From: Sphingopyxis macrogoltabida
GTDB taxonomy: Bacteria > Pseudomonadota > Alphaproteobacteria > Sphingomonadales > Sphingomonadaceae
NCBI RefSeq assembly: GCF_001307295.1
Contig: NZ_CP012700.1
Span: 2,173,001-2,237,000 of the forward strand
Reading direction: 5' to 3'
Length of the DNA stretch: 64,000 nt
A program made the translations under genes and the position numbers. This document shows positions 4,712 to 28,672 of this stretch, in pieces. The number at the start of each line of letters is the position of its first letter. Positions within the stretch are counted from its first letter, which is position 1. The notes below the pieces were generated by a model. It made no database searches and was not told the DNA's origin. It was given only the letters and a program-made list of their open reading frames with translations.

Positions 4712-4741
4712 ATTAAAAGTGATTTGACATATTTCTGTCAA
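4712..4741 (-). promoter_or_regulatory. Promoter of the TonB receptor-amidohydrolase-dgcN operon
   Basis: Minus-strand -35 TTGACA (4741-4736), 18-bp spacer, then -10 TTTAAT (4717-4712), five of six to consensus. The -35 forms one arm of the palindrome at 4724-4741, so a repressor bound there would block polymerase. A sigma-70-type promoter is predicted by eye. Confidence 0.5.
4724..4741. promoter_or_regulatory. Putative RpiR operator, palindrome TTGACA-N6-TGTCAA
   Basis: Perfect 6-6-6 inverted repeat in the divergent region between the receptor operon (4638) and the RpiR gene (4790). A further TTGACA half-site follows at 4751-4756. Its first 14 bases match the promoter at 25464 in 13 of 14 positions, and the motif recurs upstream of 28558. 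Position beside the regulator gene suggests autoregulation and joint control of the three D-amino-acid operons. Confidence 0.5.
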
Positions 4742-4789
4742 TTGATAGTTTTGACAAAATTACTAACATATGCCGAAGGAAATCGGGAC

Positions 4790-5707
4790 ATGAGCGACCA
4801 GAACACCGATCGGCCAGCGATCCCCAACGTGCCGCTGCTCCAGCGGCTGCAGGCCGATCTCGAACATTATTCACCGGCCGAACGCGCGATCGCGGCCTAT
4901 ATCCTCGGCCATTATGCGACGCTGGCGTTCGAGACGGCGCTTTCGCTGGCCGACAAGGTAGGGGTCGCCGAAATCACCATCGGCCGCTTTGCCCGCCGGC
5001 TCGGCTATCGCAACTTCAAGGCGCTGAAGAATGAACTGAAGGACAATAGCGAAGAAGGTTTTCCCTGGTTGATGGGCGACCAGCTCGCCGAGTTCGTCGA
5101 ATCGGGCGATGCCGGGGACGAAAGCGAAACGAGCATCCAGCGCGAAATGAAGTCGCTGATCGAAGTTTACAGGCTTGCCGAGACCCCGCAATTCGCGAAG
5201 GCGGTCGAACTGCTCGCCCGGTCGCAGCGCGTCCAGATCGCGGGATTCCAGACCGAACGCGGGATTGCGATGCTGCTCGCCAACCATCTGCAATTCATGC
5301 GCGACGGGGTCGGCCTGGTCGACCTCAGCGCGGGCAATTATGCCGACGTATTCGCCGCCGACGAGACCGACCGCTGCCTCGTCGTCATCGATATCCGGCG
5401 CTATTCGCGCCAATCCTATCTGCTCGCCGAGCAAGCGAGCCAGCAGGGCATCCCGCTGATCGTCCTCACCGACCTGTTCTGCGACTGGGCGCCGCGGTTT
5501 ACGCCGCATGTGCTGGCCGTGCCGACGCAGACGGGGATGTTCTGGAGTTCGCCCGTCGCGCTCGTCTGCGCGGTCAATCTGCTCGTCAACAGCGTGATCA
5601 AGACGATCGGGACGCGCGTCGAACAGCGGCTCGAAAGGCTGACACAGCTCCATCAGGCGTTCACCGGCTATGCCGGGCATCAGCCGCCGCGGCCGAAATT
5701 GTCCTGA
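4790..5707 (+). CDS. MurR/RpiR family transcriptional regulator
   Basis: 305-aa regulator with an N-terminal RpiR helix-turn-helix (about residues 15-85, recognition region SLADKVGVAEITIGRFARR) and a C-terminal SIS domain (about 140-270, from VQIAGFQTERG). SIS domains usually sense phosphosugars or amino sugars; in MurR the ligand is MurNAc-6-P, from peptidoglycan recycling. The frame stays open far upstream, but the ATG at 4790 has an AAGGAAA ribosome-binding site and follows the AT-rich divergent promoter, so it is chosen. The gene faces the receptor-amidohydrolase-dgcN operon and its own promoter carries the shared TTGACA motif. It is the best candidate regulator of the D-amino-acid genes; the ligand is unknown. 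Confidence 0.88.
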   Translation: MSDQNTDRPAIPNVPLLQRLQADLEHYSPAERAIAAYILGHYATLAFETALSLADKVGVAEITIGRFARRLGYRNFKALKNELKDNSEEGFPWLMGDQLAEFVESGDAGDESETSIQREMKSLIEVYRLAETPQFAKAVELLARSQRVQIAGFQTERGIAMLLANHLQFMRDGVGLVDLSAGNYADVFAADETDRCLVVIDIRRYSRQSYLLAEQASQQGIPLIVLTDLFCDWAPRFTPHVLAVPTQTGMFWSSPVALVCAVNLLVNSVIKTIGTRVEQRLERLTQLHQAFTGYAGHQPPRPKLS

Positions 5708-5796
5708 CCACGGACCATTGCGCCGCATGGATTGACGCCGCCCGCGCTGCCGACTAGGGGGCGGCCATACATCAAGAGTCGGGCCGACGCCTGACA

Positions 5797-5839
5797 CCAA
5801 CCTGCTCCCGAGCAAGGTGGTACCCCGTCAACGACGGGG
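5797..5839 (+). promoter_or_regulatory. Possible structured RNA leader upstream of ltaE
   Basis: The 215-base gap 5708-5922 holds two adjacent hairpins: an imperfect one at 5797-5820 (CCAACCTGCT pairing with AGCAAGGTGG) and a perfect 7-bp stem at 5823-5839 (CCCCGTC/GACGGGG, loop AAC). The junction reads GGTGGTACC (5816-5824), which resembles the T-box antiterminator core. T-boxes are rare in Alphaproteobacteria, and no specifier stem or terminator could be identified. This is a low-confidence candidate. Confidence 0.25.
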
Positions 5840-5922
5840 GATGTGGCCGGACCGGCAAAAAACGGGACCATCAGCCGCACCTGCGTCGAACCGCTTCTCG
5901 ATATTTCGAAAGGGAGTTCGAC

Positions 5923-6999
5923 ATGACAGGAAAGCCGCAACAATTCGCCAGCGATAATTATGCCGGTATCTGCCCCGAAGCCTGGGCGGCGACGGCCGCC
6001 GCCAATGACGGTTCGGCGCGGGCCTATGGCGACGATATATGGACGCAGCGCGCCGCGGACGCGTTCCGCACGCTGTTCGAGACGAAGTGCGAAGTGTTTT
6101 TCGCCTTCAACGGCACCGCCGCCAATTCGCTCGCGCTCGCCGCGCTTTGCCAATCCTATCACAGCGTGATCTGTTCCTCGTCGGCGCATGTCGAAACCGA
6201 CGAGTGCGGCGCGCCCGAATTTTTCTCCAACGGGTCGAAACTGCTCGTCGCGCAAACCCCCGACGGAAAACTGAACCCCGAGGCGATCCGCGCCCTCGCC
6301 TGCGGCCGGTCGGATATTCACTTCCCCAAGCCGCGCGTGGTGACGATCACCCAGCCGACCGAGACCGGGCAGGTTTATTCTATCGACGAAATCAGCGCGA
6401 TCTCGGCGACGTGCCGCGAACTGGGGCTGAAGCTGCATATGGATGGCGCCCGCTTCGCGCATGCCTGCGCGACGCTCGGCTGCACACCCGCGGACATTAC
6501 GTGGCGCGCCGGAGTCGATGTCCTGTGCTTCGGCGGCACGAAGAACGGCATGGCGGCAGGCGAGGCGATCATCTTCTTCGACACGAGCCTCGCGACCGAT
6601 TTCGACTACCGGTGCAAGCAGGCGGGACAGCTTGCCTCGAAGATGCGCTTCCTGTCGGCGCCGTGGATCGGGCTGCTCGAAAGCGGCGCCTGGCTGGGCA
6701 ACGCCCGCCACGCCAATGATTGCGCCGCCAGCCTCGCGACAACGATCGCCGGTCTCCCCGGCGTCCGGCTCGCCTTCCCCGTCGAGGCCAATTCGGTGTT
6801 CCTCAGCGCTCCCGACACGGTGCTCGACGGGCTGCGCGAGCGCGGCTGGCTGTTCTACACCTTCATCGGCGGCAGCGCCCGCTTCATGTTCGCGTGGGAT
6901 TCGGACATCGCGGTGGTCCGGGCGCTGGGACAGGATATCGTCGAACTGTGCGCGCCCGCGGCCGGAATGCCGCCGGCACCACAATCGAGCTATGGCTGA
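5923..6999 (+). CDS. ltaE: Low-specificity threonine aldolase
   Basis: PLP-dependent beta-eliminating lyase fold, 358 aa, the usual family length. It cleaves threonine or allo-threonine and other beta-hydroxy-amino acids to glycine plus an aldehyde. Visible motifs: FAFNGTAANSLAL (cofactor phosphate region), HMDGARFAHA (Asp contacting the PLP ring) and the Schiff-base lysine in CFGGTKNG. An AAGGGAG ribosome-binding site precedes the ATG at 5923. It lies 215 bp downstream of the RpiR gene on the same strand and converges with the acyl-CoA synthetase gene, overlapping its end by 10 bp. A role in amino-acid catabolism fits the neighbours; L- versus D-specificity cannot be read here, although the fold is that of the L-type enzymes. 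Confidence 0.88.
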   Translation: MTGKPQQFASDNYAGICPEAWAATAAANDGSARAYGDDIWTQRAADAFRTLFETKCEVFFAFNGTAANSLALAALCQSYHSVICSSSAHVETDECGAPEFFSNGSKLLVAQTPDGKLNPEAIRALACGRSDIHFPKPRVVTITQPTETGQVYSIDEISAISATCRELGLKLHMDGARFAHACATLGCTPADITWRAGVDVLCFGGTKNGMAAGEAIIFFDTSLATDFDYRCKQAGQLASKMRFLSAPWIGLLESGAWLGNARHANDCAASLATTIAGLPGVRLAFPVEANSVFLSAPDTVLDGLRERGWLFYTFIGGSARFMFAWDSDIAVVRALGQDIVELCAPAAGMPPAPQSSYG

Positions 7000-16030: not shown

Positions 16031-17125
16031 CTAGCGCGTCGCGGCCTCGCCGGCCGTCTCCCGCTTTGCCAGCCATTCGGGGCGCAGATAGGGCGCCACA
16101 TTCTCGCAAAGCTGTTTCCATTCGGCCGGCGTTACCGGAAGCGCCAGCTTTTCCGCGGCGAAATATTCGGCGGGCGGCGCGATCGCAGGCCAGTCGCTGG
16201 CGAGAACGAACCGATCAAGCCCGATCTTGCGCATTCCCGCGACATAAATGCCGCGAAGTTCGTCATAGCTGCGTTTCTCGGTCGAGGTTTTGGCGTCGGG
16301 CAGCTTGGACGGATCGAACTGCATCACCGCCGAAATATCGAGAACGAGATTGGCTGTACCCGGGGCCTTGCGCGCGATCGCGTCACCATAAGCGGCCAGC
16401 GCGTCGAGCGTCGGCTGATCGATCCCGGCATAGCCGCCACCATGAGCGATCTGGATCGGCAAATCGCCCGCCTGCGAAACAACCCGGTCGAGGAAGATAT
16501 TGACGCCGGCAGTGCTGAATGGTGCCGCACCGCGAAGATGGACGACGAGCGGCATCCGAGCCTTGTTCGCCGCGGCAAAGAAGCGGCCGAGCGCTTCGAC
16601 CTGTTCGCGGTTGGCGGTATCGAACCCGCTGTTGCCGAGGTGCAGCTTGACCCCCGACGCGCCGGGCTGCTTCGACCAATATTCGAGCTCGTCGAACGCA
16701 TTGGCTGCGAAGGGATTGATCCCCACAAAGGCGAAGAGCCGCCCCTTCGATGCCAGCGCCGCATCGACGTTGAAGCGGTTTTCGCCGCGCATTTTTTCGG
16801 CTCTGACCGCCGGTTCCATCGGCACGGCGGTGAAACCGAACATATAGCCGGTGGACAGCAATACGCCCTTGTCGATGCCCGCCCGGTCGAGTTCGCGCAG
16901 CGCATCGGCCCCGGTGCGTTCGGCGAACAGGTCAGCGGAAATGCCGTCGAATATATCGGGTTCGGCCGCCTGCATTGCGCGCAACTGATCGACGATCAGC
17001 TTGCTCTGGATATGCATATGATGGTCGGCCCGCGGCACCGGATCGGAGCGCTTCGCATCCTGTGCCAGCGCCGGGATGGCGCCAAACAGCAGCAGCGCCG
17101 CGAACGGGGCAACCGAACGGATCAC
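16031..17125 (-). CDS. Secreted amidohydrolase (amidohydrolase_2 family)
   Basis: 364-aa TIM-barrel metal hydrolase with a signal peptide (VAPFAALLLFGAIPALAQ). Metal and active-site motifs: ADHHMHIQS (HxH), VKLHLGN, VVHLRG, IAHGGG, and Asp in VLASDWP. The open frame extends to 17368, but the GTG at 17125 overlaps the upstream dipeptidase stop (GTGA, 17122-17125) and places the signal peptide correctly. It is the last gene of a seven-gene operon of peptidases, transporter, dgcN and receptor starting at 25401. A hydrolytic role on an amide or lactam released from D-peptides is plausible; the family also contains lactonases and decarboxylases, so substrate and reaction are open. Confidence 0.75.
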   Translation of the reverse strand: MIRSVAPFAALLLFGAIPALAQDAKRSDPVPRADHHMHIQSKLIVDQLRAMQAAEPDIFDGISADLFAERTGADALRELDRAGIDKGVLLSTGYMFGFTAVPMEPAVRAEKMRGENRFNVDAALASKGRLFAFVGINPFAANAFDELEYWSKQPGASGVKLHLGNSGFDTANREQVEALGRFFAAANKARMPLVVHLRGAAPFSTAGVNIFLDRVVSQAGDLPIQIAHGGGYAGIDQPTLDALAAYGDAIARKAPGTANLVLDISAVMQFDPSKLPDAKTSTEKRSYDELRGIYVAGMRKIGLDRFVLASDWPAIAPPAEYFAAEKLALPVTPAEWKQLCENVAPYLRPEWLAKRETAGEAATR

Positions 17126-18306
17126 CCGGCTTTTCCCTGCGCCGCCAAGACGCGCAGAATATTGCCGCTCCACATTTTTTCGATGTCGGCGTCCGAATAG
17201 CCCGCCGCTTTCAGCCGTTCGGTGACCTTGGGTAGCGCCGAGATATCCTCGATCCCGGTCAGTCCGCCGCCGCCGTCCCAGTCGGCGCCGAAACAGATAT
17301 GATCGACGCCGCCGACCTCGATCGCGCGCAGCACCATCGCCATATATTTTTCGAAATCGGCCGCCCACAGCGTCTCGGTCTTGTCGAGTTCGCGCCAGCG
17401 GCGCGTGAGTTCCGCTTGCTCGGCCGGCGACAATGTACCTATCGTCTCATATTTTCCGAACAATTCCGCGCGTTCGGGCGACATCTTCATATCGGATAGG
17501 AAGATCGTCGAGATGCACATCGCGCCGCCCTTCGCCGCCAGCGCCTTCAGCCGCCCCTCGTCGAGGTTGCGCGGATGGTCGTTCGCCGAACGCAGGCTGG
17601 AATGCGAGAGGAGGATCGGATATTTCGACAGCGCGAGGATCTGGTCGAAGGTCGCGTCGGAAGAATGGCTCGCGTCGATCACGATGCCGAGCCGGTTCAT
17701 TTCGGCGACCCATTGCTTGCCGAGCGGGCTGAGCCCTTTCCAGCGCCCCTCGCCCGTCGCGCTGTCGGCGAACTGGTTGTCCTTCGAATGCACCGGCCCC
17801 GCCAGCCGGACGCCCTTTTGGTAGAATTCCTCGAGCAGCGACAGGTCTTCGCCGAGCGGATAGCTGTTCTCGATCGACTTGAAGGCAATCAGCTTGCCTT
17901 CCTTGTTGAGCCGCCGGGCATCGTCGGCGGTCAGCGCCGGGCCGATCGCATCCTTGTGCACCGCAATCGTCCGGTCGATCAGGTCCGACCGTTTGCGCGC
18001 ATGGTCGAGCGCCGCGGCATAGCCAGCCGGGGTCAGCGGCCCCTGATCGGTATAGATAGCGAAAAAGCCGCCATCGAGATTGCCATCCTTCATCCGCGGG
18101 ATGTCGAGCTGCGACAGGTCGGTCGCGAGGTCGTGGCGATCAGCGAAATTCCAGCCCTTGCGCTCGAAATGCAGCGGCGTGTCGAGATGGGTGTCGAGCA
18201 CCAGCATCCGGCTGTGGAGCGGCGCTTCAGGCGCCTTGGGCTTGTCGCCGCCGGTCGAGCACGCCGACAGCGCGGCGGCGGTCACCAGAATCGCGATCCG
18301 CTTCAC
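17122..18306 (-). CDS. M19 membrane dipeptidase family lipoprotein
   Basis: 394-aa renal-dipeptidase-type (peptidase M19) zinc hydrolase with a lipoprotein signal (lipobox LSAC), so membrane-anchored. It keeps the canonical binuclear metal site: HxD in DTHLDTPL, bridging Glu in KSIENS, DASHSSD and LSHSSLRS, then Asp in FGADWDGGGG. M19 enzymes hydrolyse dipeptides and tolerate a D-residue at the C-terminal position, which fits the operon. The GTG start at 18306 overlaps the serine hydrolase stop (GTGA); upstream in-frame codons read through that gene. It is translationally coupled on both sides. Confidence 0.86.
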   Translation of the reverse strand: MKRIAILVTAAALSACSTGGDKPKAPEAPLHSRMLVLDTHLDTPLHFERKGWNFADRHDLATDLSQLDIPRMKDGNLDGGFFAIYTDQGPLTPAGYAAALDHARKRSDLIDRTIAVHKDAIGPALTADDARRLNKEGKLIAFKSIENSYPLGEDLSLLEEFYQKGVRLAGPVHSKDNQFADSATGEGRWKGLSPLGKQWVAEMNRLGIVIDASHSSDATFDQILALSKYPILLSHSSLRSANDHPRNLDEGRLKALAAKGGAMCISTIFLSDMKMSPERAELFGKYETIGTLSPAEQAELTRRWRELDKTETLWAADFEKYMAMVLRAIEVGGVDHICFGADWDGGGGLTGIEDISALPKVTERLKAAGYSDADIEKMWSGNILRVLAAQGKAG

Positions 18307-19880
18307 TTCCTGTCCTCCACGGGTTTCAGGTCGAGGTCGTGATAGTCCCAACTGAAGTCGGCGATCTTGCTCACCGCCTTCATCGTCACGCCGGTCACCT
18401 TGCCGTCGGCGTCGAGCGCGAAGGTCACATAGGCGGGCTCGATCGCCGGCTCGTCGAAATCGGTGACGAAGCTGTCATATTGCCAATGCTTGAGCCGCCC
18501 GGCCATCCGCGGCGTTGACGTAAAGTCGATCGTCAGCCCCTGCGGCGTCGAGGCTACCACGACATCGCCGTACCACGGATCACGATAACGCCCGGCATAG
18601 CGGGCGGGGTCGAGCGACGGGCCGACCTTCGCCGGGGCGGCCTGTGCCTGCTTCAGATATTCGACGCCGCCGGCAAGCCGTTCCTTGTACCAATCCTGCC
18701 ATTTTTTGGTCCAGCCTTCGTCGGGCTGGTCGAGATAATGGTCGAGCAACTTGTACGTCAGCCCGAGCAGCATGCCGCTCTCTTCGCTATTCATCATGAT
18801 CGCAAAGCCGACATTTTTTTCGGGGATCACCACGACGCGGGTGATCGACCCGAACACGCCGCCGCCGTGCGAAATGATCTGGTGGCCGCGATAATCCTGC
18901 ACCTGCCAGCCGAGCGCATAGGATTGCATCGTCGGCTGCGCGGGTTTGAGCGCGTCGGGCAGCGGGGTGATCGGCATCATCGTCACCGGCTTCCACATCT
19001 CGGCCGCCTGCGCCTCGCTGAACAGCCGCTTGCCGTTCGGCAGCGCGCCGTGCGCGAGTTGTATCTTCAGCCACGCCGCCATGTCGTCGGCGCTGAGCGC
19101 CAGCCCGCCGGCGGGCGCGCCGTTGCGGCCGAGTTCATCGCGTTCGTTCAGCGCCTGCTGGTCGCCGAGCCCGCGCAGCGGCCCCGACAGCCGCGCGTGC
19201 GGCCACGAACGGTTCGGGATGCGAAAGCGATCCTCGCTGTCGCTCGTCGCGTTCTTCATCCCGCCGGGCCGCAGCACGCGGTCGCGCATGAAGGCTTCCC
19301 ACGTCTGCCCGGTGACCTCCTCGATCAACTGCCCTGCGACCGCATAGAGGATGTTGTCATAGGCGTAGGAAGACCGGAAACTCGTCTGCGGTTTAAGGTA
19401 GGCGACACGCTCGACCGTTTGCTTGCGGCTCAGGTGCGTGCGCGGCACGAACATCAGATCGCCCTGCCCCAGCCCGAGCCCGCTGCGGTGAACGAGCAGG
19501 TCGCGGATCGTGATCTCGCGCGTAACCCAGGGGTCGTACATGCGGAACCATGGCATATGCTGGATCACCGGGTCGTCCCAGCCGATCTTGCCCTCGTCGA
19601 CGAGGATCGCTAGCGCCGCCGCGGTCATTGCCTTTCCGGTGGAACCGGTCTGGAAGATCGTCTGGCCGTCGACCGCGGCGCGCTCGCCGAGCTTGCGCAC
19701 ACCCCAGCCGCGCGACAGCGTCGTCTTGCCATCCTCGACGATCGCGATCGACACGCCCGTGGCGCCGATTTCCTGCCGCAGCGCCTCGACCTTTTCGACG
19801 AGGTCCTGCGGCGGCTCCGCCCATGCCGGCACAGCGACGCCGAGCAAAAGCGACAGGGTGATCAGACGGGCGGAGGTCAT
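18303..19880 (-). CDS. Periplasmic serine hydrolase (class C beta-lactamase/PBP fold)
   Basis: 525-aa protein with signal peptide (ITLSLLLGVAVPAWA). Catalytic motifs: SxxK in TGSTGKAMT (about residue 90), YxN in YAYDNILY, and HGG in ISHGGGVFG. A C-terminal domain of about 150 residues follows the hydrolase fold. This fold includes D-aminopeptidases, DD-carboxypeptidases and esterases; with DgcN and dipeptidases alongside, cleavage of D-residue peptides is the best guess. The ATG at 19880 overlaps the transporter stop (ATGA, 19877-19880) and gives the signal peptide; longer readings to 20042 are shadow. Confidence 0.8.
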   Translation of the reverse strand: MTSARLITLSLLLGVAVPAWAEPPQDLVEKVEALRQEIGATGVSIAIVEDGKTTLSRGWGVRKLGERAAVDGQTIFQTGSTGKAMTAAALAILVDEGKIGWDDPVIQHMPWFRMYDPWVTREITIRDLLVHRSGLGLGQGDLMFVPRTHLSRKQTVERVAYLKPQTSFRSSYAYDNILYAVAGQLIEEVTGQTWEAFMRDRVLRPGGMKNATSDSEDRFRIPNRSWPHARLSGPLRGLGDQQALNERDELGRNGAPAGGLALSADDMAAWLKIQLAHGALPNGKRLFSEAQAAEMWKPVTMMPITPLPDALKPAQPTMQSYALGWQVQDYRGHQIISHGGGVFGSITRVVVIPEKNVGFAIMMNSEESGMLLGLTYKLLDHYLDQPDEGWTKKWQDWYKERLAGGVEYLKQAQAAPAKVGPSLDPARYAGRYRDPWYGDVVVASTPQGLTIDFTSTPRMAGRLKHWQYDSFVTDFDEPAIEPAYVTFALDADGKVTGVTMKAVSKIADFSWDYHDLDLKPVEDRK

Positions 19881-21016
19881 GATGCAGTCTCCAGTTGGGA
19901 AAGCGGGGTGCCGCGTAGCAGGCGCCAGACGCCGATAGTCAGGAGCGGTGCGACAAAAACGGCGAGGAACAGCCAGGCGAGGAAGCGGTATCCGCTGGCG
20001 ATCAGATCGACGAGCCCGATGCGGCCGGCGACGAACATGCATCCCGCGAGGATAACGGCGCCGATGACGGCACGCGTTCCCGGCGTCAGCGCGCGCCGGC
20101 CGCAGCTTTCGACCGCGCCCGAGATACGCTCGTTGATCGCATGGACCGCACCGGCGCCGCTTTCGAGCAGCGCCGCGAAGATCATCACCTGGAACAGGAT
20201 GTGGAAACCCGGCACCGTCATCTGGCGCAGCAGGAAGTCCGACGGCAGCGTCTCGTCGCCGATTGCAGGATAAAAGGCCATCATCGCGACGAAGAACAGG
20301 ATCGCGGGCAGCATCGACAACGGGCCGGCGATCAGCCCGGCGACGACCGCGTCGCGCTGGCTGGTCAGGTGGCGCAGCACCGGCAGGATCACGACGGCGC
20401 CGACAATATTATAGCTCGCATAGGTCAGCCCGCCCGCCATCCAGTTGCCCGACGGCGGCGGCGCGCTCGCGAAGCCCTGCCCGATCAGCCCGCCGAAGCT
20501 CGCAAGCGCAAGGATCAGGAACAAGCCGTAGACGGCGTAGAGCAGGATCGAGACATATTTGAACATCTGCTCGACCGCACCCGTGCCCCACGCGGTGACC
20601 GCGACGATCGATACGGCGAGGAGCAACGAGCCCGTCCATTCGGGCCAGCCGAAGGTCGCGGCGCCGATCGCGCCTGCGGCGGCGCCGAACACCGCAAGGA
20701 TCAGGATGACGAAAATGATATAGGCGGCCTCGAACGCTCCCCAGGCCGGGCCCAACAGCCCTTTGAAGAAAGCGCGATAATCATAGGCGCCGAGCTTGCG
20801 AGCGAGCGCAAAGGTCAGCGCCGCGACGACGCTCCAGATCAACGTTGCAAGCAGCATCGCAGCGAGCCCACCCCACGGGCCCGATGGCACGAAATATTCG
20901 GCCAGTTCGCGTCCGGTCGCATAGCCGCCGCCGATGATGACGGCCTTCAATGCAAAACCGGGCAGCAGGAAGCGCTGAAACCAGCTCGACCTGCCGCCCG
21001 TCTCGCCCACACTCAT
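19877..21016 (-). CDS. YkvI-family membrane transporter-like protein
   Basis: 379-aa integral membrane protein, about 10-11 hydrophobic segments, resembling the YkvI family of the APC superfamily. The first segment carries a glycine-rich IIGGGYATGRELAEYF, like the unwound first helix of LeuT-fold amino-acid carriers. No member I know of has an assigned substrate. It is translationally coupled on both sides (ATGA at 21013-21016 with dgcN and at 19877-19880 with the serine hydrolase). It is the only inner-membrane carrier in this operon, which makes it the natural candidate to import the D-amino acid or short peptide used by DgcN. The start at 21016 is set by the overlap. Confidence 0.7.
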   Translation of the reverse strand: MSVGETGGRSSWFQRFLLPGFALKAVIIGGGYATGRELAEYFVPSGPWGGLAAMLLATLIWSVVAALTFALARKLGAYDYRAFFKGLLGPAWGAFEAAYIIFVILILAVFGAAAGAIGAATFGWPEWTGSLLLAVSIVAVTAWGTGAVEQMFKYVSILLYAVYGLFLILALASFGGLIGQGFASAPPPSGNWMAGGLTYASYNIVGAVVILPVLRHLTSQRDAVVAGLIAGPLSMLPAILFFVAMMAFYPAIGDETLPSDFLLRQMTVPGFHILFQVMIFAALLESGAGAVHAINERISGAVESCGRRALTPGTRAVIGAVILAGCMFVAGRIGLVDLIASGYRFLAWLFLAVFVAPLLTIGVWRLLRGTPLSQLETAS

Positions 21017-22053
21017 GCGAGACAGCTGTCGACCAGCGCGTCGAACGCCGCGCCGCCGCGAATGGGATCGGCAACGGGCAGACCGAGCCGTTCGCTTTCC
21101 GCCGCCATCAGCGCTTCGGCCGCTTCGGCCGAATAGGCCGAGGTGTTGAGGCTGACGCCCCCGCAACGGATCGCCGGATTGGTCCGGCTGCCGAGGCGGA
21201 TGGTCAGGTCGATGACCTCGTCGATGCTCGGCATCGCGAAGCTTTCCATGCCGAGGATCACCGTGCGCGCCGGATCGTGGCAGACGACGAAGACGTCGGG
21301 CTGGCTGCCGTGAAGCAGTCCCAGCGACACCGCGGCATAGGCGGGGTTGAAGATCGAGCCCTGTCCCTCGACGACATCCCAATGAGCGTCGGGCGCGTCG
21401 GGGCTGAGGATTTCGGCGGCTCCCGCCTCGAAATCCGAAATCACCGCGTCCATCGGGATACCGCCGCCGGCAATCATGATCCCGGTCTGGCCGGTCGCGC
21501 GAAAATCGGCGTCGAGGCCGCGCTGGACGAACGCCCGATGTAGCGCAAGTGCGGTATATTTCTTGCCGAGGGCGCAGTCGGTCCCGACGGTCAACAGCCG
21601 CTTGCCGCTGCGCTTCCGCCCGTTGCCGATCGGAATGCCCGCAGGCGGCGTACGCACGTCGATCAGCCGCTGGCCGGTACGGCGCGCCGCCTCGGCAAGC
21701 GCAGGCACGCTTGCGAGCCGGACGTGCAGGCCGCTGATCACGTCGAGCCCCGCTTCCATCGCCTCGATCAGCGCCGCGACCCAGCTATCGGCGAGCACGC
21801 CGCCCTGGTTCGCGACCCCGATCACCACCGACCGCGCACCTGCCGCCCGCGCATCGGCGGGCGAGAGGCGTTCGAGGCCGGTGGTTACCGTACAGCCGCC
21901 GATCGCCATTTCGCCGACGCAGCGATCGGGCGCCCAGTCGGCAAGGCCGAAAGCGGTCTTGGCATAGCTCGCCTCCACCGTGTCGCCGAGGAAGAGAAGA
22001 TAGGGCTGCGGCAGCACAAGGCTGTCGGCAAGCCTGCCGGTCGGCGCGTTCAT
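21013..22053 (-). CDS. dgcN: DUF1611/DgcN-type D-amino-acid N-acetyltransferase, copy 2
   Basis: 346-aa complete DgcN-family protein. Segments LPQPYLLFLGD, GTDCALGKKYTALAL (P-loop-like), GQTGIMIAGGGIP and VEGQGSIFNPAYA are shared with copy 1 at 1-992. Characterised DgcN acetylates D-glutamate, and DgcA then racemises N-acetyl-D-glutamate. The ATG at 22053 has GGAG 8 bp upstream; a TTG at 22077 (8 residues longer, overlapping the receptor stop) is the alternative. It sits between a TonB receptor and a YkvI-type transporter in an operon with two M19 proteins and a serine hydrolase. The dgcA gene is in the neighbouring operon. Confidence 0.87.
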   Translation of the reverse strand: MNAPTGRLADSLVLPQPYLLFLGDTVEASYAKTAFGLADWAPDRCVGEMAIGGCTVTTGLERLSPADARAAGARSVVIGVANQGGVLADSWVAALIEAMEAGLDVISGLHVRLASVPALAEAARRTGQRLIDVRTPPAGIPIGNGRKRSGKRLLTVGTDCALGKKYTALALHRAFVQRGLDADFRATGQTGIMIAGGGIPMDAVISDFEAGAAEILSPDAPDAHWDVVEGQGSIFNPAYAAVSLGLLHGSQPDVFVVCHDPARTVILGMESFAMPSIDEVIDLTIRLGSRTNPAIRCGGVSLNTSAYSAEAAEALMAAESERLGLPVADPIRGGAAFDALVDSCLA

Positions 22054-22073
22054 CTGGTTCAACTCCAATTCGC

Positions 22074-24254
22074 TCAAAAGGCCATGTCGAGCGCGACGCC
22101 GATCGTGCGCGGCTGTAGCGGCACGTTCGTCTGATAGGCCTGCGCACCAAAGGCGTTCAACGTATAGCTACGCTGCGTCGATGCCCGCTTGTTGGTCAGG
22201 TTGCGTGCATAGACGCGCACCGTCCAATGGTCGTCGAAGGTGACGGCGGCATTGGCATCGAGCGCGGTATAGGGGTCCGACCACAGATTGTTCGGGCTGC
22301 TGGACGGCAGCGACGCCAACCGCGACGAATGCCGCAGTCCCACACCGACCTTGCCTGACGCATTTTCGCCGATCCCGAAGCTGTAATCGGCCTGCACCGA
22401 CCCGGTGAATTTCGGCACGCTGGGCAGGCGCGCGCCGTCGACGCCGGAGATTTCGGGCGCATCGGCGGTCAGCTTCGCATCAGCATAGGCGGCGCTCGCC
22501 ACCAGCGACAGTCCGCGCACCGGCCGCCAGGTCACGGTGCCTTCGACGCCCTTGCTGACCGCCGACGGGCCATTGGCCTGCCCCGTCACGCCGCCGAAGG
22601 GTTGCACCACCTGGATGTCGGTCCAGTCCATATAGAAACCGGCCACTTCGACCGCGAGCGTGCTGCCCAGATTGCCCTTGAAGCCGATTTCGTAATTGAC
22701 CAGCGTGTCTGCCGCGACCTGCGGCGGCACCCCGGGGAACACGACGTTCGGGCCGCCGGGACGATAGCCATTGGCGACGCGCGCATAGAGCATGGCATCT
22801 TCGCTGATGTGGATCTGCGGGCTGATGCTGTAGATGAAGACATCTTCCTTGGACGAGCCGGTGAAATTGGCAACGCCGATGAACGGGCCTTCGCTGATCT
22901 GCTGGAAGTTCTGCTTGTTCTTGGCGTAACGCAGGCCGCCCGACAGCGCGAACACGTCGCCGAAATAGGCCGTCGCATTCGCGAACACTGCCATTTCCTT
23001 GAACGTCGAGGGCAGCGACACGATGGCGCCCGGATCGAATAGATTCGGTTCGCCCGAGAAGTCGAAGGTGCGGACCAGCTGGTGATTCTCGCTCGTCTCC
23101 TTCGTGTAGAAGGCGCCGATCATCCACTCGAAGCGGTCGTTGCTCGGCGACGCGAGGCGGATTTCCTGCGTGAACTTTTCAAGGCCGAGCTCGATGCTGA
23201 ACGGCGCGAGGCCTTCGGGCACCGCCCCGCCGCTCAGCGCCGGGAACGCGACACCGAAAACGAGCGAGGCATCCTGCACGCTGGTGGTTTTGGTTTCGCT
23301 ATAGGTCGAAACCGAGGTCAGCGTTGCAAAGCCGAGGTCATAGTCGAGCACCGCCGAATAATAATCGATGCTCTTGTGGAAAGGCTCGGGCAAGAAGGCG
23401 TTGTAGGACCAGCCGTCGCCGATCGGGACGCCCGCGACGGTCGACACGATATTGTTGGTCGCGTTCGCGTCGATGGTTTGCCAGATGCCGCCGAGGCGAA
23501 CGGTGAAATCCTCGGTCGCATTCCAGAGCAGGCTTACCCGGCCGCCGACCTGCTCGACCGAATTCGCATCGTTGAGCGCCGGATTGTTGACCGAGCTGAC
23601 ATAACCCGGAGTCTTGCGCCACGAGAAGCTGCCCGTCATTCCGAGCTTGTCCTGGACGATCGGCGCATTAACCATCACCTGCGCCGCCCAGCCGGGATTG
23701 CCGGCATGATCGATCGTGAAGAGTTCGCCGCCGGCCTTGACGCTGAAATCGGTCGTGCTCGGCGCGACGGTCCGGTATTTCAGCAAACCGCCGATCGAGC
23801 TTGCACCGTAAAGCGTGCCCTGCGGCCCGCGCAGGATTTCCAGCCCGGCGATGTCGTACGGCATCAGGTCGAGCGAATAGGTCGCGCTGCGGGCGTAAAG
23901 GCTGCTCGATCCTACCGGCGCGTCATCGAGGTATATGCCGACCGCCTGTGCCGAGCCCACCGGCGCGATACCGCGAAGCGAAATGATCGACGTACCGGGC
24001 TGCGAGCTGATCACCGTCATCCCGGGAACATAGCCGGCATAGTCGACCAGCGATCCGGCACCCTGATCGCGCAGCGCTTCGCCGTTGACGACGGTGATCG
24101 AGATCGGAACATCCTGAAGCGCTTCCTCGCGCTTCTGTGCCGTCACGACGATCACTTCGCTTTCAGCTTCGGCGAGTTCCGCTTCCTGCGCCCCGGCCGG
24201 CATCGCCGCCGTCAGCGCGGCCATGCTTCCTGCAATAAGAAATCCCTTATTCAT
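22074..24254 (-). CDS. TonB-dependent receptor of the dgcN-dipeptidase operon
   Basis: 726-aa receptor: signal peptide ending MPAGAQ, TonB-box-like VIVVTAQKREE, plug (LQDVPISITVVNGE, SLRGIAPVG, LEILRGPQGTLYG) and barrel ending LDMAF. It starts 5 bp after the M19 gene stop with GGGGGTAAGACG before the ATG, and its stop lies just before the dgcN ATG. Operon position with dipeptidases and dgcN indicates import of peptide or peptidoglycan-fragment-like ligands; the ligand itself is inferred. Confidence 0.87.
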   Translation of the reverse strand: MNKGFLIAGSMAALTAAMPAGAQEAELAEAESEVIVVTAQKREEALQDVPISITVVNGEALRDQGAGSLVDYAGYVPGMTVISSQPGTSIISLRGIAPVGSAQAVGIYLDDAPVGSSSLYARSATYSLDLMPYDIAGLEILRGPQGTLYGASSIGGLLKYRTVAPSTTDFSVKAGGELFTIDHAGNPGWAAQVMVNAPIVQDKLGMTGSFSWRKTPGYVSSVNNPALNDANSVEQVGGRVSLLWNATEDFTVRLGGIWQTIDANATNNIVSTVAGVPIGDGWSYNAFLPEPFHKSIDYYSAVLDYDLGFATLTSVSTYSETKTTSVQDASLVFGVAFPALSGGAVPEGLAPFSIELGLEKFTQEIRLASPSNDRFEWMIGAFYTKETSENHQLVRTFDFSGEPNLFDPGAIVSLPSTFKEMAVFANATAYFGDVFALSGGLRYAKNKQNFQQISEGPFIGVANFTGSSKEDVFIYSISPQIHISEDAMLYARVANGYRPGGPNVVFPGVPPQVAADTLVNYEIGFKGNLGSTLAVEVAGFYMDWTDIQVVQPFGGVTGQANGPSAVSKGVEGTVTWRPVRGLSLVASAAYADAKLTADAPEISGVDGARLPSVPKFTGSVQADYSFGIGENASGKVGVGLRHSSRLASLPSSSPNNLWSDPYTALDANAAVTFDDHWTVRVYARNLTNKRASTQRSYTLNAFGAQAYQTNVPLQPRTIGVALDMAF

Positions 24255-24258
24255 CGTC

Positions 24259-25401
24259 TTACCCCCAGACTTGAGCGAGCAGGCGGCGGAAATTGCCCCC
24301 CAGCACGGCCGTGATATTTTCGTTGGAATATCCGCGACGGATCAGTTCCTCGGTCAGGTCGAAGACCTTCTTCGGATGATCGAACCCGTCGATGTCGATC
24401 TTGTCGCGAAAGGCGTAGCTGCCCTTGTAGCTGCCCTTCAGGGCGGCATATTCGTCGGGCTTCATATCGTCATAGCCGTTGAGGTCGGCATCCGAACCGA
24501 TGCCGACATGGTCGATCCCGACCAGCTTCGCGACATGGTCGATATGATCGGCCATATGGCCCACATTGGTGGGATCGGTCGCGCGAATGAACATGCGCAC
24601 CCCGGTGATTCCCATCACCCCGCCTTTCGCCGCGAGCGCTTTAATCGCCTCGTCGGTCTTGACGCGCGGATGGTCGATCAGTGCGCGGGCGTTGCTGTGG
24701 GTGATCGCGATCGGCCCTTTGGCCAATTCGATGGCATCCAATGTGGTCTTGTCGCCGCAATGCGACACGTCAACCAGCATCTTCTGCTTTTCCATTTCGG
24801 CGATGATCGCGGCGCCATAATCGCTGACGCCGCCGTCGACGCGCTCGGTGCTGCCCGACCCGATCAGGTTCTGGCTGTTATAGGTGAGCTGCGCGCAGCG
24901 CAGGCCGAGGCGGCGGAACAGCGCGACATCCTCGATGCTCTGGAACTGTTCCGCATTCTGGATACCCATGATGACCGCGCATTTGCGGTCCTTTTTCGCC
25001 TGATCGAGATCGGCGACGCCGTCGACCAGCGTCAACACATGGCTGTTGCGCCCGGCAAAACCCTGCCAGCCGGCGAGAAATTCAAGTGCCTGCTGCTTCG
25101 CATTCGGTCCGCCAAGCCCATAGGCATTATGGAAACCGGTGATGCCGCTGCTGCGAAACTCCTCCGCCTCGGCATCGGTCAGGCGATGCGCGACATAGTC
25201 TTCTGACAGCGTGATCTTGAGCGGCGCCAGCATGTCGATCACCAGCGACGAACCGACAAGGTCGACCGCCCGCCGCGAATAGCTGCGCCCCGGCGCCGCA
25301 GCGAAGGCATAAGCACCGCGATTGATCATCGGCATCGACACAGCCGCACCCACCGCGCCCGCAACCAGTGCGCGGCGCGTCATCGGGAATGATGATGTCA
25401 T
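24259..25401 (-). CDS. M19 dipeptidase-family protein lacking canonical metal ligands
   Basis: 380-aa M19-fold protein with a Tat-like signal (MTRRALVAGAVGAAVSMP), so probably exported folded. DVSHCGD and ITHSNARAL keep the later His ligands. The N-terminal HxD motif is replaced (VIDMLAPLK) and the bridging Glu is Gln (MGIQNAE). This matches a subgroup of M19 relatives whose activity is unclear to me; it may bind one metal, act on another substrate or be non-catalytic. The ATG at 25401 follows GGAGGGTGGA; an in-frame GTG at 25413 is less likely. It is the first gene of the seven-gene operon running to 16031. Confidence 0.8.
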   Translation of the reverse strand: MTSSFPMTRRALVAGAVGAAVSMPMINRGAYAFAAAPGRSYSRRAVDLVGSSLVIDMLAPLKITLSEDYVAHRLTDAEAEEFRSSGITGFHNAYGLGGPNAKQQALEFLAGWQGFAGRNSHVLTLVDGVADLDQAKKDRKCAVIMGIQNAEQFQSIEDVALFRRLGLRCAQLTYNSQNLIGSGSTERVDGGVSDYGAAIIAEMEKQKMLVDVSHCGDKTTLDAIELAKGPIAITHSNARALIDHPRVKTDEAIKALAAKGGVMGITGVRMFIRATDPTNVGHMADHIDHVAKLVGIDHVGIGSDADLNGYDDMKPDEYAALKGSYKGSYAFRDKIDIDGFDHPKKVFDLTEELIRRGYSNENITAVLGGNFRRLLAQVWG

Positions 25402-25436
25402 TCCACCCTCCACCTCAGGTAAGTTTCACTCTCAAG

Positions 25437-25478
25437 ACTATTGTCCTGATCAGAAAAATGTCAACCCATTTAGGACAA
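25437..25478 (-). promoter_or_regulatory. Promoter/operator of the 25401-16031 operon
   Basis: Minus-strand -35 TTGACA (25464-25459), 16-bp spacer, -10 AATAGT (25442-25437). The spacer holds the palindrome CTGATCAG (25446-25453), and a perfect inverted repeat TTGTCCT...AGGACAA spans 25441-25478. Over 28 bases from the -35 it matches the promoter upstream of 28558 at 21 positions, and its first 14 bases match the RpiR-gene promoter at 13. This supports shared control. Confidence 0.55.
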
Positions 25479-25510: not shown

Positions 25511-25567
25511 GCCGGGATCTCGCCGGGGCGTCCTGACCCTAAGGCGAGACCCCGGCCTGCGCCGGGG
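25511..25567. repeat. Intergenic palindromic repeat overlapping the 3' end of dgcA
   Basis: GCCGGGATCTCGCC (25511-25524) pairs with GGCGAGACCCCGGC (25543-25556), 13 of 14 positions; a second stem CCCCGGC/GCCGGGG lies at 25550-25567. It resembles the GTCACCCCGGC-type extragenic repeats common in sphingomonads. The dgcA frame reads into it, giving the tail PVTPAQAGVSP. It may serve as the dgcA-operon terminator. Confidence 0.6.
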
Positions 25568-26579
25568 TGACAGGAGAGCCCCAAATTTCTGCCGGACAAT
25601 GGACCATGCCGCCGGCGTAACGGACCCCGGGCTCGCGATCACGGGCCAGGAAGATCGGTCCATCGAGATCGACGATGTCGCAGAGCTGCCCGACCACATA
25701 GGACGGCGCCATCGACAGGCTGCTGCCCATCATGTTGCCGACCATCACGTCGAGCCCGAGCCGCCGCGCCTCGCGCGCGATCGCCAGCCCCTCGGTCAGC
25801 CCGCCGCATTTGTCGAGCTTGATGTTCACCACGTCGAAACGCCCGACCAGCGATGCCGTATCGGCCAGCGTCACCGCGCTTTCATCGGCAGCGAACGGCA
25901 GCGGCCGCGCGAAGCCGTCGAGGTCCGCCTCACGCCCGCGCCGGAGCGGCTGTTCGAGCAGCGAAACGCCGTTCGCGACGAGCGTCGGGAGCAGACCCGG
26001 CAACGTCTCGATACTATAGCCCTGGTTCGCATCGACGCCGATCCATGCATCGGGACGCGCCGAGCGGATCGCGATGACGCGCGCAATATCCTCCTCGACA
26101 TCGCCGGTCAGCTTGACCTTGATCGGGGTCTCGGGATCGAATGCCAGCATCCCTTCCACCATCAGCTCGGGCCGGTCGGCGCCGAGCGTCATCGTCGAGC
26201 GCAGGGGTTTCGGCGCGTCGAGCCCCGCAAGGTCCCAGACGGGCCGGCCGGCCTGTTTCGCCTCGAGATCCCAATAGGCGCAATCGAGCGCATTGCGCGC
26301 GCCGCCCGGCGGCAAGAGCTGCTGCAGATCCTCGCGCGTTGCGCCGCTTTCGATCGCACCGCGCACGCGCTCGGCCTCCGACGTCATATGGGCAATGTCG
26401 TCGCCGAGATAATAGACGCCGGCGCCCTCGCCGCGCCCGCTGTGCGTCCCATCCGAAATTTCGGCGACCAGAAGCTCGGTTTCGGTGAAGACATGCCCCG
26501 AAATGCGGAACGGCCGGTGATAGGGAAAGCGCTCGACCCGAAGGTCGAGCGCCAGATTTCGTACCGATTGCGTCGTCAT
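25539..26579 (-). CDS. dgcA: DgcA-type N-acyl-amino-acid racemase / dipeptide epimerase
   Basis: 346-aa enolase-superfamily enzyme of the Ala-Glu epimerase subgroup. Catalytic and metal residues: KxK in PIKVKLTG, metal Asp in GVDANQGY, Glu in LLEQPL, Asp in FAADESA and the opposite-face Lys in NIKLDKCGG. DgcA proteins convert N-acetyl-D-glutamate to the L-form after DgcN; the fold also makes L-Ala-D/L-Glu epimerases used in peptidoglycan-peptide recycling, and either function suits this locus. The ATG at 26579 overlaps the serine hydrolase stop (TGATG). The last ~10 residues are encoded by an intergenic-type palindrome, so the native end may once have been shorter. Confidence 0.85.
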   Translation of the reverse strand: MTTQSVRNLALDLRVERFPYHRPFRISGHVFTETELLVAEISDGTHSGRGEGAGVYYLGDDIAHMTSEAERVRGAIESGATREDLQQLLPPGGARNALDCAYWDLEAKQAGRPVWDLAGLDAPKPLRSTMTLGADRPELMVEGMLAFDPETPIKVKLTGDVEEDIARVIAIRSARPDAWIGVDANQGYSIETLPGLLPTLVANGVSLLEQPLRRGREADLDGFARPLPFAADESAVTLADTASLVGRFDVVNIKLDKCGGLTEGLAIAREARRLGLDVMVGNMMGSSLSMAPSYVVGQLCDIVDLDGPIFLARDREPGVRYAGGMVHCPAEIWGSPVTPAQAGVSP

Positions 26580-28558
26580 CAATATACCATTCCAAAACCG
26601 TAGAGGTGGAAGACCAGCGTCACCCAGACCAGCACCAGTCCTGCGAGCAGGAGCAGCGCCGCGCCGAACTTCATCGTCCATTTGCGCTTGTCCTTGATGC
26701 TGAGCCACAGATGCCAGCCGGCAGTGGCGAGCAGGCCGAACGCAGCGACCGGCGTCAGGATGCGCAGCAGGTGGATCAGCCAGTCGAGCGGACCGCCGAT
26801 GCTGCCGATATCGGCCGAGAAGGCAGCGATCAGGCCGATCCAGCCGGCAAGCGCCGCCAGCACCAGCCAGGCGAACAGGCGCGATAGGCGATAAGCGCGC
26901 CGCGCGTTCCCTTCGAGCGCGAAGGTCGCGCCGAAGTTGCGGCGGACCAGCGCCCGGACCGGCCAGGCGAGTGCCGCGAGCAGCACGATGCCAAGTGCCG
27001 CGATCAGCGCCGGGATGAGCCAGGCGGCATTGGCGCTTGCCCGCGCGGGTTCGAACACCATGAACGGCGATCCGGGATCGAGACTCCAGCGGGTAACCCG
27101 GCCGTCCTTCACTTCGGCGGCAAGGCGTTCGCCGGTGCCGGTGTCGCGCCACACGAAGGGTTCGACCTCGACCCAGTCGCGCGCGCCGGCGCCAAGCCCA
27201 TCGAGACCCGGGATGCTGAGCTTGCCGTCCTCGGTCATCCCGACCTGCGCCTGCCCGAGCAGGCCGAACAGGCTCATGAAGTTGGTGAAGCTGCCGCGGC
27301 TGCTCTCATAATGGCCGACCATCATCTGTGCATGCTGGCGGGCGGTCTTGGCATCGACGGTGCCAGGCGTTGCAGTGCCGGGCAGGTAGCGATCGGCGAA
27401 TTTGTGGAACAGCGCGCTGCGTACCGCGCCCGCATCGCCCGCCTTGCCAGCGCTGTTCATCGAGATGAAGACGCCGATGTCGGCATCGGGGAACAGCCAC
27501 AGATAGGAGTGGAACCACACGGTATCGCCGCCATGCGCGATCGCGCGGTGGCCGTTGACCCATTGTTCGTAGAAGCCGAGCGCCATGCTGTTGAGCGGGC
27601 CGACGCCGGGCGCCTTGAAATCATGCATGATCTTCGCGGTTTCGGGCTTCAGCAGCCCCGCGCCGTCGTTGAGGTGCGCGATCATGAACTTGCCCATGTC
27701 GGCGCCGCTCGCCGACAGGCTGCCCGCCGGGGCCGGGATCACGATCTCGAAGGGCTGCGCCTTCTTTGTGATATCGGGATAACCGTTCGACATGAAGGGC
27801 GCGAGCCGCGCCGGCAACGGCTGGCGGAAGGTCGCATAATTCATGCCGAGCGGCTTGAAGATGTGGTTCTCGACATAATTGTCGAACGGCTCGCCGCTGA
27901 CCCGCTCGACGATATAGCCGGCAAGCGCGGTCGCGTAGTTCGAATAGGCCGGCGTGGTGCCTGGCGCAAAGACGCGGTCGGGGAGCGCGAGCGGCATCTG
28001 CTGCTTCAGCGCCATCACCGCCTTGGGATCGCTGCTGATCAGATATCGGACCGATTCCTGAAAGCCTGCGGTGTGCGTCATGATGTTACGCATCGTCACC
28101 GGCCTGCCCTGATAGGGCGGAATCTTGAAGTCGAGATAGGTGTTGACGTCCTTGTCGAGATCGATCTTCCCCGCCTCGACCTGCTGCATCACCGCAGTCC
28201 AGGTGAACAGCTTCGACACCGAACCCGGCCGGAAAAGCGTGGTTTCGGGGTTGACCGGTGCGCGCTTCGCGACGTTGCTATAGCCATAGCCCTTTTCGAG
28301 CACGACCTGATTGCCGCGCACCACGACGACGACCGCCCCCGGAATATTCGCGCGTTCCAGCGCATAGGGGAGATAGCCGTCGAGCCATGCCTCGAGGTCG
28401 GCGCGGTCGAGCGCGACCGGCTGGCCCGTTTTCGGAGTCTCCGGCGCCGCCGCAGTTACGGCCTTTTTCGCCGGCTCGGGCGGTATCGGTCCCTGCGCCG
28501 CCAGCGGCAGCGCGACCAGCGCGGTCAATCCGATCATCAACTTGCGAAGGAAACGCAT
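26579..28558 (-). CDS. Serine hydrolase (PBP/beta-lactamase fold) with C-terminal membrane domain
   Basis: 659-aa protein: signal peptide (LMIGLTALVALPLAAQ), beta-lactamase-fold domain with SxxK in PGSVSKLF, YxN in YSNYATAL and HGG in AIAHGGDTVW, a linker domain, then four or five C-terminal hydrophobic helices (from about residue 505). It is therefore probably anchored in the inner membrane with the hydrolase in the periplasm. It forms an operon with dgcA (TGATG overlap) and has its own copy of the shared promoter motif. D-stereospecific peptidase or DD-carboxypeptidase activity is inferred. The ATG at 28558 has AAGGGG at a 6-bp spacing; the ATG at 28564 is too close to it. Confidence 0.8.
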   Translation of the reverse strand: MRFLRKLMIGLTALVALPLAAQGPIPPEPAKKAVTAAAPETPKTGQPVALDRADLEAWLDGYLPYALERANIPGAVVVVVRGNQVVLEKGYGYSNVAKRAPVNPETTLFRPGSVSKLFTWTAVMQQVEAGKIDLDKDVNTYLDFKIPPYQGRPVTMRNIMTHTAGFQESVRYLISSDPKAVMALKQQMPLALPDRVFAPGTTPAYSNYATALAGYIVERVSGEPFDNYVENHIFKPLGMNYATFRQPLPARLAPFMSNGYPDITKKAQPFEIVIPAPAGSLSASGADMGKFMIAHLNDGAGLLKPETAKIMHDFKAPGVGPLNSMALGFYEQWVNGHRAIAHGGDTVWFHSYLWLFPDADIGVFISMNSAGKAGDAGAVRSALFHKFADRYLPGTATPGTVDAKTARQHAQMMVGHYESSRGSFTNFMSLFGLLGQAQVGMTEDGKLSIPGLDGLGAGARDWVEVEPFVWRDTGTGERLAAEVKDGRVTRWSLDPGSPFMVFEPARASANAAWLIPALIAALGIVLLAALAWPVRALVRRNFGATFALEGNARRAYRLSRLFAWLVLAALAGWIGLIAAFSADIGSIGGPLDWLIHLLRILTPVAAFGLLATAGWHLWLSIKDKRKWTMKFGAALLLLAGLVLVWVTLVFHLYGFGMVY

Positions 28559-28644
28559 CGTCATCCCCTTGTTCCCGCCGCGCCGGCCTTTCGCAGCCGC
28601 GCAGCCCCATTATCCACGCCAACACATATTGGCCCGATAGGGAC

Positions 28645-28672
28645 ATAATGATCCTGATTGGAAAATTGTCAA
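28645..28672 (-). promoter_or_regulatory. Promoter/operator of the serine hydrolase-dgcA operon
   Basis: Minus-strand -35 TTGACA (28672-28667), 16-bp spacer, -10 CATTAT (28650-28645). Bases ATTTTC then AATCAGGA in the spacer align with the 25464 promoter (TTTTTC, GATCAGGA); 21 of 28 positions agree. TTGACA alone is just the -35 consensus, but the matching spacer suggests a shared regulator site. Confidence 0.55.

Follow-up and report, generated by a model that had tools for sequence, protein, structure and literature searches.

Three promoters in a 64,000-nucleotide stretch of the Sphingopyxis macrogoltabida genome (contig NZ_CP012700.1, positions 2,173,001 to 2,237,000; the whole stretch is called the window) carry the motif TTGACAWWTTTC in front of genes that appear to serve the use of D-amino acids and D-peptides. 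We refer to the three places, in window coordinates, as site 1 (4724), site 2 (25464) and site 3 (28672). Site 1 lies between rpiR, which encodes an RpiR-family regulator, and a divergent operon with dgcN1; site 2 precedes an operon that begins with an M19 dipeptidase, a TonB-dependent receptor and dgcN2; and site 3 precedes a serine hydrolase gene and dgcA (Table 1). An earlier note on this DNA had assigned all three promoters to a single RpiR regulon. The comparisons described here instead point, with high probability, to two neighbouring but separate D-residue regulons, in which RpiR would act at site 1 and a repressor with XRE and cupin domains (XRE-cupin) would act at sites 2 and 3.

Table 1. 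Sites and genes discussed in the text (window positions unless stated otherwise)
Feature	Position	Strand	Remarks
Site 1, RpiR-linked conserved footprint TTGACATATTTCTGTCAATTGATAGTTTTG	4724..4753	+	13 distinct orthologous promoters
Near-palindrome CTGTCAATTGATAG inside site 1 footprint	4735-4748	+	
RpiR-family regulator	4790..5707	+	305 residues; HTH_6 and SIS, both above cut-off
TonB-dependent receptor	2494..4638	-	first gene divergent from rpiR; arrangement kept in orthologous loci
Amidohydrolase	989..2488	-	NF006560 amidohydrolase family; "D-aminoacylase-like" is our label
dgcN1 (DgcN-like, DUF1611)	3..992	-	truncated at window edge; 430 bits, cut-off 480
Site 2, TTGACATTTTTCTGATCAGGA, promoter of the M19-TonB receptor-dgcN operon	25444..25464	-	-10 AATAGT at 25442-25437
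M19 dipeptidase	24259..25413	-	first gene after site 2
TonB-dependent receptor	22074..24254	-	
dgcN2	21013..22077	-	446 bits, cut-off 480
YkvI-like protein	20039..21016	-	name from the earlier note; 0 Pfam families; conserved in the cluster
Serine hydrolase with DUF3471	18303..20042	-	
M19 dipeptidase	17122..18351	-	
Amidohydrolase (Amidohydro_2)	16031..17368	-	
Site 3, -35 TTGACA and operator core TTGACAATTTTCCAATCAGGA, serine hydrolase-dgcA promoter	28652..28672	-	
Proposed XRE-cupin operator at site 3, ATCAGGAT-CATTAT-GTCCCTAT	28637..28658	-	imperfect inverted repeat, by eye
Serine hydrolase (beta-lactamase/AmpH-like)	26579..28564	-	first gene after site 3
dgcA (N-acetyl-D-Glu racemase-like, MR_MLE)	25539..27152 (open frame)	-	362 bits, cut-off 400
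Own (unlinked) XRE-cupin	G000:C1:2363170-2363781		HTH_3 and Cupin_2
Coding match to WTYCYRATYAGGAY	genome 473905		P-type-ATPase-like frame (by eye)
Coding match to WTYCYRATYAGGAY	genome 2204751 (window 31751)		RND gene
Coding match to WTYCYRATYAGGAY	genome 2870525		348-residue frame

The motif occurs without mismatch at 4724-4735 on the forward strand and at 25464-25453 and 28672-28661 on the reverse strand, with no fourth place in the window. These are also its only three exact matches in the 5,098,553 bases of the genome under study (G000), where the reversed pattern has none. Sites 2 and 3 have 21 of 28 bases in common, and of the first 14 bases 13 are identical between sites 1 and 2. Site 1 contains the 6-6-6 palindrome TTGACA-TATTTC-TGTCAA, so the places, agreements and palindrome reported in the earlier note are all confirmed. 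Such rarity in one genome does not make three sites one kind, and a motif with no more than three places in a genome may yet bring together sites from two unrelated regulons. In a sample of 60 genomes of the genus, 56 have a match to TTGACAWWTTTC, with 150 matches in 54 genomes among those listed. After setting aside the matches near XRE-cupin genes, those at rpiR promoters, sites 2 and 3 of G000 and of its close relative G433, and two matches in the genome G452, there remain 44 of the listed matches, or approximately 0.8 per genome, and one extra match is therefore ordinary.

Sites 2 and 3 have more in common than the motif. They share TTGACAWTTTTCYRATCAGGA, and a genome search with TTGACANNTTTCNNATCAGGA allowing up to three mismatches returns both at zero mismatches and six other places, all at three, which we took as chance. 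In a promoter scan both are the -35 boxes of good promoters, each with a 16-bp spacer and 10 of 12 consensus bases, where site 2 has AATAGT and site 3 has CATTAT as its -10 box. For rpiR the same scan prefers TTGATA at 4742 as the -35 box, rather than the TTGACA at 4724. The element extended from sites 2 and 3, TTGACAATTTTCYRATCAGGA, is found in 58 of 397 Sphingomonadaceae genomes, often as a pair with a spacing of about 3.1 kb (the search used TTGACAWNTTTCYRATCAGGA with at most two mismatches, for which the reversed control pattern gave 2). Among 20 loci that were fetched because they carry the element, 19 have a copy with up to three mismatches upstream of the serine hydrolase-dgcA genes, and 19 likewise have one upstream of the M19/TonB receptor-dgcN genes.

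A matrix built from the 17 distinct 21-mers among the 38 sites of these loci, with the window kept out of the training, gives 40.1 and 42.6 bits for sites 2 and 3 compared with 6.5 for site 1. The difference is largest over the last nine bases (YRATCAGGA), where sites 2 and 3 score 15.7 and 16.4 bits and site 1 scores -14.2. Of 127,958 window positions, 44,870 attain at least the score of site 1, compared with 4 for the score of site 2 and 1 for that of site 3. The ATCAGGA core is missing from site 1 in this matrix comparison. Judged by these comparisons, sites 2 and 3 are one real conserved regulatory element, and the claim of one motif for three promoters holds for this pair but is not supported for site 1. 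The third-best matrix score in the window, 16.0 bits and far under those of sites 2 and 3, falls at 61370 on the reverse strand, near the start of the frame 58354-61410.

The element is accompanied by a particular regulator gene. Clustering of the open frames in 21 stretches (the 20 fetched loci plus part of the window) revealed a gene of about 210 residues divergent from the serine hydrolase in 18 of them; the AsnC/Lrp and Glu/Leu-dehydrogenase-like flanking genes, each present in 7 of the 21, were rejected as the common partner. A later search placed an XRE-cupin beside the dgc cluster in 19 of the 20 loci, all of them chosen for the element. The protein scores above cut-off for HTH_3 and Cupin_2 in the four relatives scanned, as does the XRE-cupin of the genome under study. 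Across the family sample, an XRE-cupin (E<=1e-45) is encoded by 68 of the 397 genomes, namely by 50 of the 58 with the element compared with 18 of the 339 without it (Fisher p=1.4e-39, a figure overstated by the kinship of the genomes). For 48 of the 58 the distance from this gene to a site is no more than 10 kb, and often only tens of bases. In most element-bearing relatives the regulator gene runs divergently from site 3, with its start next to the site.

The same linkage appears within the genus, where 44 of the 45 genomes with an XRE-cupin of 64-69% identity have TTGACAWWTTTC at most 250 bp from the gene, among the matches listed; in the 45th, G452, the XRE-cupin matches start at base 1 of two contigs. 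Some genomes are present under two handles, as judged by identical places (G324/G398, G174/G405, G430/G399 and G408/G397). Among the listed matches, twelve to TTGACAAATTTC have, no more than 250 bp away, a gene of a second XRE-cupin type (40-44% identical; for example G411:C2:284160 and G410:C1:1093417), so that two types of XRE-cupin in the genus are marked by TTGACAWWTTTC. Promoters of this second type, in the few examples examined, have a related CAGGAT-like core.

Site 1 is, by its own conservation, probably part of a separate RpiR-linked gene set. Orthologues of RpiR were found at ten close loci with 76-85% identity; beyond these there are one distant locus with 43% and two matches that are short and weak. 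The divergent TonB receptor, amidohydrolase and dgcN genes are kept in nine of the ten close loci, and in the tenth, L017, the contig ends partway through the receptor. What is conserved in the rpiR promoter over 13 distinct sequences is the footprint TGANATaTTTCTGTCAATtGATAGTTTTg and not the TTGACA of site 1, which in some orthologues is replaced by TTGATA, ATGATA, ATGAAA, GTGAAA or ATGACA. Two loci, L028 and L029, have no match to the promoter pattern as typed, and the shorter footprint is found in both genomes (G253 with one mismatch, G220 exactly). The RpiR footprint TGANATATTTCTGTCAATTGATAGTTTT occurs once per genome in 15 handles picked for carrying RpiR; specifically, ATATTTCTGTCAATTGATAGT with up to three mismatches has one match per genome in all 15, which by position are 13 distinct genomes (handles were counted separately here, whereas distinct promoters were counted once in the promoter comparison). 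At that tolerance ATATTTCTGTCAATTGATAGT is absent from sites 2 and 3, and its sole match in the genome under study is site 1. The nearest NCBIfam model of the RpiR protein itself is SapR, at 175 bits against a cut-off of 500.

The distribution of RpiR can then be set beside that of the element. Relatives of RpiR (E<=1e-40) occur in 24 of the 397 family genomes and close orthologues in five of these, two of which have no element; conversely, the close orthologue is present in 3 of the 58 element genomes and missing from 55. In the genus sample it is present in 6 of 60 genomes and in 5 of the 47 with XRE-type sites, leaving 42 without it, where the 47 are in our sorting the 44 with a match within 250 bp of a 64-69% XRE-cupin together with G000, G433 and G452. 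Eight further RpiR genomes divide into five with the element (at most two mismatches; two of them with a single two-mismatch copy) and three without, two of the three being 2.9-Mb metagenome-assembled genomes of unstated completeness. A model in which RpiR binds all three sites as one regulon draws on the fact that the only exact genome matches to TTGACAWWTTTC are these sites, on the 13 of 14 bases common to sites 1 and 2, on the dgcN or dgcA gene in each of the three operons and on a slight excess of genomes with both RpiR and the element. Against it stand the 55 element genomes without a close RpiR, the RpiR genomes without the element, the poor conservation of TTGACA at site 1, the strongly negative score of the right half of that site and the single RpiR footprint per genome, and we regard this model as very improbable. 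The search across the genome and the Sphingomonadaceae that the earlier note had proposed agrees with it in that TTGACAWWTTTC is rare in the genome, and departs from it in that the element occurs with XRE-cupin far more often than with RpiR.

The genome under study is itself an exception to the usual linkage. There is no XRE-cupin gene beside the serine hydrolase in G000 or in G433, which has the same 20.7-kb arrangement with proteins 92-99% identical, and both genomes keep sites 2 and 3, identical between them over the 21-base element and the -10 box. At window 28673-34782 RND efflux genes occupy the place where L099-L102, of the same genus, have XRE-cupin and amidohydrolase genes beside the serine hydrolase. 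Both genomes do encode an unlinked XRE-cupin, 161 kb away in G000 and about 292 kb away in G433, which is 100% identical between the two and 64-69% identical to the linked type of the genus; two further XRE-cupins of G000 reach 31-33%. It is flanked by a gene that matches D-amino-acid dehydrogenase with 373.6 bits (cut-off 383) and by one of the Rid family, which reaches 71 bits against a cut-off of 106. In the 60-genome sample the site pair without a linked copy is found only in G000 and G433, and so is the unlinked protein.

Just upstream of the unlinked gene both genomes have the palindrome ATCCTGATTAGGAT. Its core is that of the element: WTYCYRATYAGGAY is found at six places in the genome, namely site 2, site 3, the promoter of the unlinked XRE-cupin and three places inside long reading frames. 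The non-coding places are thus sites 2 and 3 and the XRE-cupin promoter, and all three fit the model; the three coding matches (Table 1), each inside a long frame, were rejected as regulon members. The presumed recognition helix, STLSKVEHDRL, is the same in the unlinked protein and in all four aligned linked XRE-cupins of the genus. No relative of the unlinked protein was found in the PDB by sequence.

The likeliest acting regulator of sites 2 and 3 would seem to be the unlinked XRE-cupin 161 kb away. Specifically, the linked repressor may have been lost in the ancestor of G000 and G433, with the operators left intact, and the XRE-cupin paralogue associated with the D-amino-acid dehydrogenase and Rid genes may have taken over, a hand-over to which we give an even chance. 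If true, it would join the N-acetylation route of DgcN and DgcA and an oxidative D-amino-acid route in one regulon, next to an independent RpiR regulon with a second dgcN. The two sister genomes are a natural test of how a regulon survives the loss of its local repressor. The operators might also be orphans, with no replacement for the lost XRE-cupin and with operons that are constitutive or otherwise controlled. The absence of the linked gene from both genomes speaks for this, as does the fact that the closest remaining XRE-cupin is just 64-69% identical to the linked type and lies on another branch. The identity of both sites between the sister genomes speaks against it, as do the matching palindrome in the promoter of the remaining regulator and its unchanged presumed recognition helix, and we consider orphan operators unlikely.

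The palindrome also bears on another explanation, in which the element is a strong core promoter with no dedicated regulator and its XRE-cupin neighbourhood is incidental to the position of the operons. TTGACA with a -10 box at 16-bp spacing is indeed a good sigma-70 promoter, and a search pattern that demands the spacer bases inflates their apparent conservation. However, conservation of the spacer bases ATCAGGA comes close to that of the -35 box, the same core recurs as the palindrome at the unlinked XRE-cupin promoter, and the second XRE-cupin type has, in the few examples examined, a TTGACAAATTTC promoter of its own whose core resembles CAGGA. A core promoter alone is accordingly given very little credence.

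We therefore return to two regulons. In this proposal RpiR would act on the intergenic region common to rpiR and the TonB receptor-amidohydrolase-dgcN1 operon, and sites 2 and 3 would be operators of the XRE-cupin repressor, with an ATCAGGA half-site in the spacer between the -35 and -10 boxes. At site 3 the inverted repeat is centred on the -10 hexamer CATTAT (28650-28645), so that the partner half would lie beyond the -10 box and a dimer bound there would stand in the way of RNA polymerase. Sorting by a rough script rule gave 23 site-3-like rows, whose consensus retains ATcAGGAtcattatgtCc, including the right half-site. Because of the target genes and the likeness to PsdR described below, the repressor would presumably be released by a ligand in its cupin domain that is a D-peptide or derives from D-Glu. 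Release would allow import by the TonB receptor, cleavage by the M19 dipeptidases and serine hydrolases, and the DgcN/DgcA route to N-acetyl-L-Glu. The result is a candidate regulator with a predicted conserved operator for the scavenging of D-glutamate and D-peptides in Sphingomonadaceae, a capacity that plausibly has to do with the turnover of dead-cell wall material.

The gene content after sites 2 and 3, with its M19 dipeptidases, TonB receptor, serine hydrolases, DgcN and DgcA, does look like a set for the uptake, cleavage and N-acetylation/racemisation of D-residue peptides, and in this respect the earlier reading is retained. Compared with the NCBIfam equivalogs NF041892 and NF042940, the dgcN and dgcA products are, from their scores (Table 1), clear relatives under the naming threshold. 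The dgcA family match begins at residue 203 of the open frame, and the true start should therefore lie near 26550.

Several observations weigh against this interpretation. An XRE-cupin of 1e-74 or better, here called strong, was not found in nine of the 58 site genomes. In eight of the nine every site has two mismatches, which may be chance. G308 (78% complete) has an exact pattern match and only a 48% XRE-cupin. Conversely, 14 genomes with a strong XRE-cupin have no element; among the 11 of these that were fetched, nine have dgc genes beside the XRE-cupin and a promoter that by eye has drifted, and two do not. L113 (G253:C13:132000-151999) has both sites and no XRE-cupin in its 20 kb, the three strong XRE-cupins of G253 lying elsewhere and the nearest on that contig about 97 kb off. 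The right half-site is degenerate at site 2, and the sites behind the consensus were gathered with a pattern that demands its bases. Close RpiR and the element co-occur slightly above chance (3 of 5 genomes, p=0.024), as do any RpiR relative (1e-40) and the element (8 of 24 genomes, or 8 of the 58; p=0.014), both with kinship ignored; we take this slight excess to reflect common ancestry or niche. A single event, seen in two sister genomes, is the basis for the hand-over. Finally, a tree of 36 of 41 XRE-cupin sequences (the five not longer than 150 residues were dropped) groups the protein of G000 with an unlinked copy in G174 (support 100/99), which adjoins a frame resembling by eye a flavin adenine dinucleotide oxidoreductase, and not with the linked copies of the genus. 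The protein of G000 is thus a paralogue or a transfer and not simply a moved gene, and it need not share the specificity of the linked type.

Around rpiR some further genes vary between loci. A second dgcA-like gene follows rpiR in six of the ten close loci (L012, L014, L015, L017, L020 and L021); it is 45-53% identical to the dgcA of the window, and the L012 copy scores 358 bits against NF042940, with a cut-off of 400. No such gene lies between rpiR and the pyridoxal-phosphate lyase gene in the window (5707-5923), nor in L013, and since it is missing here, dgcN1 may rely on the dgcA that belongs to the other regulon. The lyase gene itself, of the beta-eliminating lyase family (window 5923-6999), is linked to rpiR in L013, L014 and L015 as well. 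On contig C17 of G253 a distance of 26 kb separates a close RpiR orthologue (60325) from an XRE-cupin (34031).

DgcN and DgcA reportedly make up a D-glutamate pathway with a published regulator, DgcR. The same two enzyme families occur here, each just below its NCBIfam equivalog cut-off, with the difference that the two dgcN copies stand under two different proposed regulators. The pathway is mentioned in PMC10845958. Among the papers listed from the open-access literature, none describes an XRE-cupin or RpiR regulator of dgcN or dgcA in Sphingomonadaceae; most subscription papers lie outside that literature, and this is no proof of absence. For the RpiR side the nearest parallel is OngR of Pseudoalteromonas, described in PMC9537276 as an RpiR-family repressor whose ong cluster has a TonB receptor and a D-aminoacylase-like deacetylase. 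The likeness lies in an RpiR-family regulator clustered with a TonB receptor and a D-aminoacylase-like enzyme; it is one of description and not of alignment, and the ong genes listed there degrade oxidised chitin sugars and include no dgcN or dgcA (PMC9537276).

The XRE-cupin has parallels as well. According to PMC7901475, the XRE-cupins of Pseudomonas aeruginosa exert local control over few genes, with palindromic motifs where these could be derived, and one of them, PsdR, governs small-peptide uptake and a dipeptidase. The XRE-cupin proposed here resembles PsdR, by description and not by sequence, in its XRE and cupin domains, in the predicted local control of a small gene set and in its palindromic site (PMC7901475), but its targets would be dgcN, dgcA, M19 dipeptidases and TonB receptors, and in this genome the regulator is unlinked. 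DbuR of Pseudomonas putida, which its authors group with the XRE-cupin regulators, is an XRE-family protein that represses an operon for D-amino-acid catabolism in which an oxidase and a Rid protein are encoded, and its footprint covers the predicted -10 box of that operon (PMC12724383). The unlinked XRE-cupin likewise lies between D-amino-acid dehydrogenase and Rid-family genes; however, the gene order differs, the palindrome of DbuR is AATTCTCATATATTAGAATT compared with RTCCTGATCAGGAY here, and the likeness is one without shown orthology (PMC12724383). The XRE-cupin local repressor is thus a kind already known, and what would be unusual in this lineage is the change of regulator.

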